64,000 nt of DNA from Rheinheimera mangrovi (GTDB lineage: Bacteria; Pseudomonadota; Gammaproteobacteria; Enterobacterales; Alteromonadaceae): assembly GCF_003990335.1 (NCBI RefSeq), contig NZ_CP034683.1, forward strand, positions 696,501-760,500, read 5' to 3'. Under the pieces are notes generated by a model. That model saw nothing but the letters and a program-made list of their open reading frames with translations, did no database searches and was not told the origin of the DNA. Positions 56,791 to 58,270 of the stretch are shown here, piece after piece (the stretch's first letter is position 1; each line of letters starts with the position of its first letter). A program made the translations under genes and the position numbers.

Positions 56791-56844
56791 TAACCCTTTA
56801 GTGTGTTTTTGATAAATAGGAGTGTTTTATTTTAAATCTATATT

Positions 56845-56889
56845 TATCAATATCTTAAAGATTAACTCCAGTATGGCACGCACCTTGAA
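56845..56889 (+). promoter_or_regulatory. IHF site and sigma-54-type promoter
   Basis: TATCAATATCTTA (56845-56857) matches the IHF consensus WATCAANNNNTTR in every position. TGGCAC-GCACC-TTGAA (56874-56889) has a perfect -24 element and TTG at -12, with GA in place of the -12 GC. The layout terminator / IHF / sigma-54 element / gene is that of a phage-shock-type promoter needing a PspF-like activator. Confidence 0.62.
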
Positions 56890-56930
56890 ATAGACATAGT
56901 GAACTTCACTACTCATTAAGGAGCACGACC

Positions 56931-57197
56931 ATGAAAACACTTGCAACGTTAGTCCTTGTTACCGCTGCGGCTTTTGCTGTTACTCCATCAGTACAAGCCA
57001 ACGAACTGAGCTTACCTGCAGTCAATACACAAACTATCAGCACCTTTGCTGCTGAATTGATGAGCCAACAAATGGCTGAGTTAAAAGTTGCGATTCTGGA
57101 GCAAAGCCAAAAAGCGATAGCTGAGCTTGAAATCACTTTAGTGAAATCTGCTGAAACTGAAAAAGAACCAGTGATTGCAGTAGCTAAGGTGGATTAA
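56931..57197 (+). CDS. Small exported helical protein
   Basis: An 88-aa protein with a signal peptide (residues 1-23, cleavage VQA-NE). The mature 65 residues form one amphipathic helix (TFAAELMSQQMAELKVAILEQ...) ending in a short polar tail. No family recognised. AAGGAG precedes the ATG. It lies about 40 bases behind the sigma-54-type promoter and its stop region carries the ribosome-binding site of the next small gene. A periplasmic partner of the PspC-like protein is conceivable but only by proximity. Confidence 0.65.
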   Translation: MKTLATLVLVTAAAFAVTPSVQANELSLPAVNTQTISTFAAELMSQQMAELKVAILEQSQKAIAELEITLVKSAETEKEPVIAVAKVD

Positions 57198-57199
57198 GG

Positions 57200-57325
57200 A
57201 TGCTGAGCTTAACATTAGGGTTGTTGGGTCTGTTTTTATTGCCCGTAGTTAGTGTTGGCCTGGTGTCTGTGATCTGGCATTGGTTATTACCGCCGTTCGA
57301 TATTCCTTCTTCAACCCGGTTTTAA
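57200..57325 (+). CDS. 41-aa single-helix membrane micro-protein
   Basis: Starts two bases after the stop of the 88-aa gene, with GGTGG eight bases upstream inside that gene. Residues 2-30 are strongly hydrophobic (LSLTLGLLGLFLLPVVSVGL, then VSVIWHWLL), followed by PPFDIPSSTRF. The stop codon falls in the loop of the terminator. Size and placement recall PspG and PspD-type small membrane proteins, but sequence identity to them is not seen. Confidence 0.6.
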   Translation: MLSLTLGLLGLFLLPVVSVGLVSVIWHWLLPPFDIPSSTRF

Positions 57326-57347
57326 GTAGTACCGGGTTTTGTTTTTT
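57313..57347 (+). terminator. Terminator overlapping the 41-aa gene
   Basis: AACCCGGT/ACCGGGTT eight-base stem, ten-base loop, then TTGTTTTTTT. The TAA stop of the micro-gene lies in the loop. Confidence 0.85.
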
Positions 57348-57373
57348 TAAGTCCTTTTCCGCTTTCCTGTTTG

Positions 57374-57405
57374 TATCTATCTATCTATCTATCTATCTAT
57401 CTATC
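57374..57405 (+). repeat. (TATC)8 tetranucleotide microsatellite
   Basis: Eight uninterrupted TATC units, 32 bp. It lies between a terminator and a sigma-54 promoter, about 215 bp upstream of the latter, and is not in a credible reading frame. Such tracts change length by slippage. Confidence 0.97.
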
Positions 57406-57616
57406 CCTTGTATCTGCCCATTTCCAACCTCTTCTGTAGTGCATTTCTGCTGCCTTTGCATGGCTGTATTTAGTCATATTTGCCTTTTTTTAAATCAACT
57501 AAAAAGTGGTTAAAAACACTATTTATATGTTTTGGTTAAATTTCAATCTATAGGGGGATATCGCTTAATTTCATATTAAATCCATATAAAACAATGGATT
57601 ATAAATTATTTTCAAG

Positions 57617-57634
57617 TTGGCATAACAGCTGCAA
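57617..57634 (+). promoter_or_regulatory. Sigma-54 promoter of the micro-protein/PspC unit
   Basis: TTGGCATAACAGCTGCAA gives GG-N10-GC with TGGCA at -24 and CTGCA at -12. A start near 57645 would leave a leader of about 55 bases before the first micro-gene. The upstream region is A/T-rich. Confidence 0.72.
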
Positions 57635-57700
57635 CGTATAGATATCAACAGATGAACTGATGATGAATTAAACCACTAACGAATACTGAGGAGAGTCAAA

Positions 57701-57775
57701 ATGGAAATAGCAGCACTGATGGTTGTATTAGCATGGTTCGGCATTGTTGGCAGCTGGGCTGCAGACGAAGTCTAA
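57701..57775 (+). CDS. 24-aa membrane micro-protein, copy 1
   Basis: A 25-codon frame beginning MEIAALMVVLAWFGIVGSWA and ending in ADEV: one hydrophobic helix with an acidic end. GAGGAGAG stands eight bases before the ATG. Conservation of protein sequence between the two copies, with silent changes in several codons, argues that it is translated. Confidence 0.7.
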   Translation: MEIAALMVVLAWFGIVGSWAADEV

Positions 57776-57840
57776 ATAACAAAGCGCTGATGAGTTTCAG
57801 CAAAGGCAAAAAAACATAAACAAAGGTTAGGAGAGTCAAA

Positions 57841-57915
57841 ATGGAAATAGCAGCACTGATGGTTGTATTAGCTTGGTTTGGCATAGTTGGCAGCTGGGCC
57901 GTAGACGAAATCTGA
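57841..57915 (+). CDS. 24-aa membrane micro-protein, copy 2
   Basis: Differs from copy 1 only at two residues (A21 to V, V24 to I). The ribosome-binding region and first 10 codons are identical at DNA level; later codons differ silently (GCA/GCT, TTC/TTT, ATT/ATA). Tandem duplication 140 bp apart, same strand. Confidence 0.7.
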   Translation: MEIAALMVVLAWFGIVGSWAVDEI

Positions 57916-57946
57916 ATGAATTAACCAGGTTAAGGAGGAGCAGGAC

Positions 57947-58042
57947 ATGTCGTTTATTATTATCAACATAGTCGTGGTCTGGGCTTTAGCTGGTTTGATG
58001 TGGATGCTGGATAAAGCGGTAATTAATAAGGTTGGGGAGTAA
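57947..58042 (+). CDS. 31-aa membrane micro-protein
   Basis: Starts MSFIIINIVVVWALAGLMWM, one TM helix, and ends LDKAVINKVGE. GGAGGAG lies 10 bases before the ATG. It ends five bases before the PspC start and its last codons supply the GGGGAG ribosome-binding site of pspC. Comparable in size and topology to PspB/PspD-type helpers, but not a recognised homologue. Confidence 0.65.
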   Translation: MSFIIINIVVVWALAGLMWMLDKAVINKVGE

Positions 58043-58046
58043 TAAC

Positions 58047-58256
58047 ATGAGTATAGGTAGAGACAAAAGCGCCTGGTTTGTGAACAAGGCCAAACGTAAA
58101 ATTTCAGGTGTGTGCGCAGGTTTTGCGGCTTTTTATGAGCAACCCATCTGGTTAGTCCGCGCTGTTGTGGTATTGCTGGCGTTCTGTTTTCCGGTTGCTG
58201 TAGTGGTAGCTTATATCGCAGCTGCGTTAATACTGCCAGAACGTTGGGTGTACTAA
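58047..58256 (+). CDS. PspC-domain protein
   Basis: A 69-aa protein with the PspC core KAKRKISGVCAGFAAFYEQP, IWLVRAVVVLLAF then CFPVAVVVAYIAAALILPE: an amphipathic N-terminal part and one long hydrophobic hairpin or helix. PspC domains sense or transmit inner-membrane stress in the phage-shock response. It closes a micro-protein operon behind a sigma-54 promoter. ATG 58047 with GGGGAG upstream is chosen over 58032. Confidence 0.85.
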   Translation: MSIGRDKSAWFVNKAKRKISGVCAGFAAFYEQPIWLVRAVVVLLAFCFPVAVVVAYIAAALILPERWVY

Positions 58257-58270
58257 TGAGTTTGTTAGAG

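Follow-up and report, generated by a model that had tools for sequence, protein, structure and literature searches.

Downstream of dusA in Rheinheimera mangrovi, two sigma-54 promoters precede five small open reading frames and a PspC-domain gene, and we propose that this cassette is probably a PspF-controlled accessory phage-shock module, what remains, without PspA, of a second psp operon ('psp2'). The best reading of the locus is that the second operon sits after dusA in many members of the family, and that it has here lost pspA and gained tandem 24-aa microproteins. The cassette lies in a stretch of 64,000 nucleotides, hereafter the window, which an earlier note had described as holding a sigma-54-driven, phage-shock-like locus with microproteins and PspC, an interpretation that is overall partly supported.

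The gene order in E. coli is zur..dusA-pspG, and gene-order comparison places the cassette at the pspG position, in agreement with the earlier note, which had likened the location after dusA to that of pspG. The five frames (88, 41, 24, 24 and 31 aa) and the terminal PspC-domain gene that it had listed are likewise present. The genes, with a hairpin that follows the second of the five frames, are:

54018..54479, minus strand: Zur-like regulator (NF008646 160.4 bits, cut-off 167), in a synteny common with E. coli
55735..56736, plus strand: dusA, the syntenic anchor (NF008774 532 bits)
56931..57197, plus strand: exported helical protein, 88 aa, Sec-type signal MKTLATLVLVTAAAFAVTPSVQA cleaved before NE, signal and cleavage site assigned by eye; pN/pS 0.27
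57200..57325, plus strand: 41-aa single-helix microprotein with an invariant mid-helix proline; pN/pS 0.10
57314..57337, plus strand: hairpin resembling a terminator, followed by a T run, downstream of the 41-aa gene (fold -10.7 kcal/mol, z -2.4)
57701..57775, plus strand: 24-aa membrane microprotein, copy 1; pN/pS 0.12
57841..57915, plus strand: 24-aa membrane microprotein, copy 2, the second tandem copy
57947..58042, plus strand: 31-aa membrane microprotein, with W12, W19 and D22 in register with the 24-aa one; pN/pS 0.16
58047..58256, plus strand: 69-aa protein consisting of the PspC transmembrane domain only (PF04024 52.3 bits, cut-off 25); pN/pS 0.09

Both sigma-54 elements, the five small frames and the PspC-domain gene are retained in one Rheinheimera clade. 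Of 17 loci, the 10 at 82-100% identity were used, the other 7 being clostridial PspC matches. Substitutions are synonymous-biased in all frames (mean pN/pS 0.09-0.27), with purifying selection on each of them, the PspC-domain gene included. The earlier note had made its reading depend on conservation of the micro-frames in close relatives; they are conserved there, and a wider distribution holds for the 88-aa family, the 41-aa family and the short PspC.

Psp genes elsewhere in the genome and in relatives

A standard pspF-pspABC operon is present elsewhere in the R. mangrovi genome, and the search for pspF and pspA that the earlier note had called for found both. The single PspA is encoded at 2.89 Mb adjoining pspF and none in the dusA locus, and the description 'without PspA' therefore holds locally but not genome-wide. 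Because of this standard operon, the replacement of PspA and PspB by microproteins that had been supposed does not hold at the level of the cell. The genome encodes PspF (TIGR02974 554.6 bits, cut-off 443.55), which shares 58% identity with its E. coli counterpart, the HTH being closely similar. PspG was not found, PF09583 having no match at E<=0.001 in the genome, nor any among the small frames; PspG follows dusA in E. coli, G079, G087 and G090.

Comparison downstream of dusA in relatives, likewise suggested earlier, revealed loci of this kind that include a PspA paralogue. A second PspA occurs in 12 of the 60 genomes searched, within 4 kb after dusA in nine, and in none of the 22 Rheinheimera genomes. 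With models trained on some of the same loci, a short PspC comes next in 12/12 and an exported protein upstream in 11/12 (13/13 and 12/13 when the added genome G118 is included). Since the relatives' locus has its own PspA paralogue, the missing pspA in Rheinheimera probably reflects a loss in the lineage. In G025, G030, G035 and G118 the genes after dusA run exported-micro, then PspA-PspC-PspG-like, an order that the window matches except for PspA and the PspG-like gene. The window has the exported protein, the PspC transmembrane domain and the PspF-type sigma-54 promoter of 'psp2' and lacks the PspA paralogue and the PspG-like protein, with no frame for a PspG-like membrane protein of 70-118 aa between PspC and prmA.

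In a PspA tree of 27 rows, which leaves out the first-copy PspAs of G022, G028, G024, G034 and G079 and 12 genus rows, all 13 second PspAs group on the same side of one branch (support 95/91); the tree, being unrooted, is compatible with a single origin of the second PspA but does not prove it. It is rather unlikely that the locus, PspF control being real, was never a PspA operon and that copies of pspA and pspC joined a dusA-linked exported/micro unit in relatives. Such an addition would fit G028, G033 and G034, where the micro unit, which in G033 and G034 includes an exported gene, is separate from the exported-PspA operon, as well as G022, where the PspA unit lies ~31 kb from dusA, and G029 and G085, where it is on another contig; however, the grouping of the second PspAs in the tree and the four genomes with the window-like order plus PspA and a PspG-like gene speak for the remainder of a second psp operon. 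Two of 14 family genomes (G029 and G031) have no cassette genes after dusA, the G029 module being on another contig, and in G083, which is without PspF, dusA is followed by a PspC gene.

Small proteins and the PspC domain

No Pfam or NCBIfam match above cut-off was obtained for the exported protein or the microproteins. Against models of dusA-linked proteins built without genus rows, the 88-aa protein gave E 3e-6 and the 41-aa microprotein, whose Pro15 is present in 17/17 rows, E 1e-8. Genus genomes were scored without genus rows and other genomes without their own rows only, and the training rows were picked by eye from the loci, which makes the E-values of the cassette models optimistic. An amphipathic-helix reading of the exported protein was dropped, since the hydrophobic-moment test gave p<=0.05 in just 3/12 exported proteins, the window's not being among them (p=0.26, not significantly amphipathic). 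The hairpin after the 41-aa gene is absent from the list of the consensus terminator scan. A pspH-like RNA is not claimed, as Rfam had no match near threshold, with two STnc390 matches at about 19 bits versus 50. The 69-aa protein scores 48.7 bits with TIGR02978 (cut-off 104), covering model positions 7-60 of 121, and is therefore a PspC-domain protein without the C-terminal part, not a PspC orthologue.

The 24-aa genes form a tandem unit of 140 bp in the window, with 2-3 intact copies per locus; strong matches to the peptide are confined to one genus clade, with weak ones outside in 6/18 genomes. Judged by sequence, the 31-aa microprotein is probably its paralogue. Ibs and Ldr are tandem type I toxin loci with tiny hydrophobic frames, and the tandem copies of tiny hydrophobic frames in the cassette resemble them. 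That the 24-31-aa peptides are toxin-like and merely adjoin PspC is nevertheless improbable, as the C-terminus of the 24-aa peptide is acidic, no sigma-70-like antisense promoter turned up in a crude consensus scan of the repeat units, the promoter type is that of the psp operon, and the frames are under purifying selection. The shortness, hydrophobicity and repetition of the frames do favour a toxin, and so does the behaviour of YohP (27 aa), whose overproduction, according to PMC12719787, depresses membrane potential and increases PspA and PspC.

Sigma-54 promoters and putative PspF enhancers

The regulatory elements, with enhancers scored by a matrix trained on E. coli PspF sites only, are:

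56763..56779, no strand: putative P1 PspF-type enhancer GTGGTGAATTTCACCAC, 111 bp from -24, 23.0 bits, p=0.002 (the lowest value that 500 shuffles allow)
56845..56857, plus strand: candidate IHF site between enhancer and P1, consensus match
56874-56889, plus strand: P1 sigma-54 promoter (-24/-12) TGGCACGCACCTTGAA, exact consensus, conserved in the alignment
56896..56912, no strand: UAS-like palindrome downstream of P1, ATAGTGAACTTCACTAC, 13/17 identical to the P1 site
57506..57522, no strand: putative P2 PspF-type enhancer GTGGTTAAAAACACTAT, 10.9 bits, p=0.012, 112 bp from -24
57618-57633, plus strand: P2 sigma-54 promoter TGGCATAACAGCTGCA, conserved in the alignment
57660..57676, no strand: UAS-like palindrome downstream of P2, ATGATGAATTAAACCAC, one column variable in 11 loci

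The P1 and P2 elements and their leaders are nearly invariant in 11 aligned loci, and it is because this conservation occurs inside otherwise diverged intergenic DNA that they amount to more than chance. Both elements of the earlier note thus stand, only its coordinates for P2 (57617-57634) being corrected on re-reading. The bare sigma-54 consensus was rejected as a stand-alone criterion: TGGCAYG-N4-TTGCW had 0 matches across the genome, and the promoter consensus with <=1 mismatch had 10 in the window versus 7.6 expected, the sole exact one being P1. A stringent enhancer-plus-promoter pattern had 10 matches genome-wide, of which the three intergenic ones are P1, P2 and pspA. The IHF site does match the consensus, as previously noted, but with 4 matches in the window versus 3.5 expected it is not alone above chance, and it is partly kept across the 11 loci. 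The palindrome at 56896-56912 has two columns variable among them.

A search for PspF upstream sites, also proposed earlier, found PspF-type sites at both P1 and P2, each upstream of the -24 element, which by sequence match is the arrangement of the PspF regulon; the spacing at R. mangrovi's own pspA promoter is 111. The P1 enhancer reaches p<=0.05 in 20/21 genus genomes, with a spacing of 110-113 in 19/21. In the window's clade the P2 site scores weakly, reaching p<=0.05 in 6/12 genomes, in one of them at another position; in 9 other genus genomes it is significant, but with a spacing of 87-126 bp. Among 35 non-genus genomes, a UAS with p<=0.05 follows dusA in 16/27 with PspF versus 0/8 without, and exported or micro genes follow it in 14/27 versus 0/8; no sigma-54 match was found between dusA and the first cassette gene in 7/12 family genomes with cassette genes. 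In the second-PspA loci, a sigma-54 element is present at 15/21 unit starts and none at 6, and 15/15 promoters have PspF-type sites, helix-phased at 111-114, 121-123 or 130-133 bp; 16 unit starts entered the enhancer scan, the 5 others, all exported-gene starts (one each in G030, G025 and G118, two in G035), lacking a nearby TGGCA-N7-TG.

Another activator at these sigma-54-dependent promoters, with PspC as the sole phage-shock link, is a distinctly remote prospect. Of the 13 strong genome matches to the PspF model, 12 are other AAA+ activators, and the P2 scores in the window's clade are modest; against this, the sites match those of E. coli PspF at nearly the spacing of the pspA promoter, the relatives without PspF have no such site (8/8), and every promoter of the second-PspA loci has one, all of which argues for PspF. 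Finally, the P1 palindrome also lies inside the dusA terminator stem and makes a good terminator hairpin, but that it is this alone, coincidentally spaced, is scarcely credible, as its letters differ in other genus members (e.g. ATAGTCAATTTAACTAC, TTGGCTAATTTCGCTAA) with the spacing still 111, and sites of this kind also occur at a distance from dusA, at P2 and at the second-PspA promoters.

Proposed mechanism and relation to known systems

Reading the cassette as a PspF-controlled module, we infer the following course of stress induction. Membrane damage or loss of proton-motive force would likely free PspF from the PspA that the standard psp operon encodes; PspF would then likely bind the palindromes at 56763-56779 and 57506-57522, IHF perhaps bending the DNA, and would likely open sigma-54 RNA polymerase at P1 and P2. 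From P1 would come the exported acidic protein and the one-helix microprotein whose helix holds a proline; from P2, the two 24-aa microproteins and the 31-aa one, each with one helix, along with a PspC transmembrane domain that lacks the signalling tail. These products, encoded at the site that pspG occupies in other bacteria, may be effectors that work within or against the inner membrane.

It is fairly likely that many family members carry an undescribed second phage-shock operon under PspF, with a PspA paralogue, a truncated PspC, a PspG-like membrane protein, an exported protein and one-helix microproteins that contain proline, and that Rheinheimera, having lost the PspA, has an effector-only, microprotein-rich form of it. 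This second membrane-stress operon is apparently undescribed so far, as no description of a dusA-linked second psp operon was found in the passages of the literature consulted. PMC9239133 gives the psp operon and pspG as the only known PspF targets in E. coli, and the role of PspG as incompletely understood. If true, the phage-shock response would be larger by a further PspF-controlled operon and its several new protein families, its effector arm could persist after PspA loss, and the cassette would offer small effector candidates at the exact position of pspG.

The cassette shares with E. coli pspG, whose product is an inner-membrane protein, the location after dusA, a PspF-type site with a sigma-54 promoter and a small inner-membrane product, but it has two promoters and several unrelated small proteins with a PspC domain, and no PspG. 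With the pspABC/PspF operon it shares the enhancer-promoter architecture of the genome's own pspA promoter, the PspC domain and, in relatives, a PspA paralogue; unlike that operon, it is without pspB, the genus has no second pspA, its PspC has no C-terminal part, and its additional products, an exported protein and microproteins, have no Pfam or NCBIfam match above cut-off. In Rheinheimera sp. BAL341 with a lytic phage, pspABC are up-regulated (PMC9305737). The one-helix microproteins of 24-41 aa also resemble in form the stress-induced small membrane proteins of the YohP type, from which they differ in being linked to a PspC gene and to PspF-type promoters.

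Gene content of the locus after dusA

The sequence does contain the small frames, the promoters and the PspC gene that the earlier note had placed at 56791-58260, all as described, and the gene order around the two sigma-54 promoters, P1 (-24 at 56874) and P2 (-24 at 57618), is as follows.

zur, minus strand, first in gene order, scoring slightly below the NCBIfam cut-off
glycosyltransferase-like gene, between zur and dusA
dusA, after the glycosyltransferase-like gene and directly before P1
P1 unit, an 88-aa exported protein and a 41-aa one-helix protein, then a terminator-like hairpin
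P2 unit, small frames of 24, 24 and 31 aa, then a 69-aa PspC transmembrane domain
prmA, opposite strand, next after the PspC-domain gene

None of the five small frames matched Pfam or NCBIfam above the family cut-off. The full gene set occurs in unchanged order in ten loci; eight belong to Rheinheimera, and the other two are in MAGs whose only label is Gammaproteobacteria. Across these and the window the mean pN/pS was 0.12 for the 24-aa, 0.16 for the 31-aa, 0.10 for the 41-aa and 0.27 for the 88-aa frames, with 0.09 for PspC, for which only 8 distinct sequences were used. Judged by these strongly synonymous substitutions across the ten loci and the window, the small frames are genes. The 24-aa gene occurs as tandem units of 118-141 bp with two or three intact copies per locus, and one locus, L009, has an additional fourth copy interrupted by an in-frame stop (L009 3516-3590; G016:C12:244688-244759), which is a sign of copy turnover. 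W12, W19 and D22 are common to the 24- and 31-aa proteins in an ungapped alignment, which suggests that they arose by duplication. In the one-helix family, the proline at position 15 (window-protein numbering) is invariant in 17/17 rows; the exported protein is acidic, and the amphipathicity of the window's copy was not significant. Between the hairpin after the 41-aa gene and P2, the window has a perfect (TATC)x8 microsatellite (57374-57405) that is missing from ten aligned relatives.

PspF and its candidate sites

The earlier note described the locus as being without PspA, which stands for the locus only, because elsewhere, at 2.89 Mb, the genome has a normal pspF, divergent from pspA, pspB, pspC and further genes. 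The PspF encoded there shares 58% identity with E. coli PspF, DNA-binding end included. The site matrix was built solely from three palindromic 17-mers lying upstream of pspA and pspG in E. coli; we take these to be the known PspF sites of the two genes, and scores elsewhere measure likeness to them. Two PspF sites at pspA and one at pspG are described for E. coli in a section of PMC3709507.

A predicted PspF-type site lies upstream of P1 (p=0.002, the lowest value that the test can give); across the genus it reached p<=0.05 in 20/21 genomes and stood 110-113 bp from the -24 element in 19/21, compared with 111 bp at the genome's own pspA promoter and 101 bp at E. coli pspA. The predicted site of P2 is weaker than that of P1 (p=0.012 in the window, 112 bp), with p<=0.05 in 6/12 genomes of the clade that carries the 24/31-aa genes, one of them elsewhere in position, and in all 9 genomes tested from the rest of the genus, where the spacing, however, is 87-126 bp. 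A stringent enhancer-plus-promoter pattern, composed after the P1, P2 and pspA promoters had been seen, matched the R. mangrovi genome 10 times against once for the reversed pattern; P1, P2 and pspA were the three intergenic matches, and seven lay within frames of 166 aa or more. UAS-like palindromes also lie closely 3′ of both promoters (56896-56912, 57660-57676), nearly invariant in 11 loci, and are possibly repression sites or leader elements.

PspF was found in 49/60 genomes. Among 35 genomes outside the genus whose dusA region could be read, 27 with PspF and 8 without, and with kinship ignored, a PspF-type site (p<=0.05) followed dusA in 16/27 versus 0/8 (Fisher p=0.004), and exported or micro genes in 14/27 versus 0/8 (p=0.012). 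In the same sample, neither the TGGCA-N7-TG promoter alone (13/27 versus 1/8) nor PspC alone (10/27 versus 1/8) differed significantly. Of 12 family genomes with cassette genes, 7 showed no sigma-54 match ahead of the first of these genes.

Distribution and proposed history of the locus

With the R. mangrovi genome included in all genome counts, the 88-aa profile matched 12/22 genus genomes and, weakly, one distant genome among 196; the 24/31-aa profile was strong in the same 12 and only weak in six others, and the short PspC (E<=1e-15) was found in 22/22 genus genomes and six others. The remaining ten genus genomes lack the 24/31-aa genes and otherwise show P1, an 87-97-aa exported protein, a 42-43-aa one-helix protein, P2 and PspC, so the tandem microproteins were probably added within one clade; this set was seen after dusA in nine of the ten, the contig of G012 stopping there. 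Models from other genera, with the genus rows excluded, still recognized the window's 41-aa (E 1e-8) and 88-aa (E 3e-6) proteins.

Exported and one-helix genes after dusA (E<=1e-3)
Clade genomes: exported 12/12, one-helix 12/12
Other genus genomes: exported 9/10, one-helix 5/10 (four further one-helix matches at E about 1e-2)
Other family genomes: exported 10/14, one-helix 8/14
Order-level genomes: exported 2/21, one-helix 0/21
Reverse-strand control: exported 0/57, one-helix 0/57

Protein profile searches returned 46 proteins for the one-helix family at E<=0.01 and 80 for the exported family at E<=0.001. Those that carry a name are hypothetical proteins of Rheinheimera, Aliiglaciecola, Thalassotalea, Thalassomonas, Glaciecola, Saliniradius, Alteromonas, Gallaecimonas and one source labelled Endozoicomonas, with the sole exception of one labelled FimT. 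Two relatives' loci, L119 (515-1655) and L073, have two exported-gene copies after dusA, each followed in L119 by its own one-helix gene. Another genome, G083, encodes an 83-aa PspC-domain protein after dusA (L140 673-924), and neither PspF nor PspA was found in it.

A second PspA (TIGR02977) occurs in 12/60 genomes, namely 10/14 family members and two more distant ones, at most 4 kb downstream of dusA in 9/12, and in 0/22 genus genomes, where the case of G008 is a single gene divided between two contigs. With G118 added via its PspC, 13 second PspAs entered the gene-order and tree comparisons. A short PspC follows in 13/13, an exported protein lies upstream in 12/13 (exception G073), and a 70-118-aa membrane protein, labelled PspG-like by eye, comes after in 11/13; only one of these 11 matched a PspG model (E 1e-4), and three submitted to Pfam had no match. 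The ~107-118-aa membrane protein family without Pfam match after the PspC transmembrane domain in L129 (823-1161), L131 (1875-2198) and L183 (3833-4171) may be a diverged PspG. In a PspA tree of 27 sequences with no outgroup root, a branch supported at 95/91 separates all 13 second copies from the first copies and the E. coli sequence. A TGGCA-N7-TG element stands within 170 nt of 15/21 unit starts in these loci, and each of these 15 promoters is preceded by a predicted E. coli-type PspF site (p 0.002-0.032) at a spacing of 111-114, 121-123 or 130-133 bp, about one helical turn per step; these were the top-scoring sites in a stretch permitting 37-190 bp, and spacing was no selection criterion.

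The simplest history would start from a second psp operon at the position of dusA/pspG, still intact in many family members. In Rheinheimera it would have been reduced by losing pspA and the PspG-like gene, and one clade would then have gained and amplified the 24-31-aa microproteins on the transcript from P2. In G025, G030, G035 and G118 the layout, exported and micro genes followed by PspA, PspC and PspG-like genes, is that of the window plus PspA and the PspG-like gene, and we infer that the genus formerly had pspA at this locus. The main rival is that pspA was added independently in the relatives. The downstream neighbours (a DUF2333 protein in L131, the copper chaperone PCu(A)C in L145, prmA in the window) do not decide the matter.

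Relation to known psp systems

The main text of two psp-diversity surveys (PMC9239133, PMC11237479) reports PspA or PspC paralogues in general terms and contains no dusA, Rheinheimera or Alteromonad-; in the sections consulted, PMC8743547 has dusA merely as the neighbour of pspG, and PMC2262068 and PMC3162934 mention PspF but not the present locus. An effector role of the PspC transmembrane domain is plausible by analogy, because in Yersinia PspB and PspC suffice for protection from mislocalised secretins, and a signalling role of the short PspC is argued against by its missing tail, because PspC binds PspA through its C-terminal cytoplasmic part (both from part of PMC5596341). A further analogy is that small one-helix proteins such as YohP are able to alter the membrane state (part of PMC12719787). 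The psp operon responds in the genus, as pspABC rose upon lytic phage infection in Rheinheimera sp. BAL341 (part of PMC9305737).
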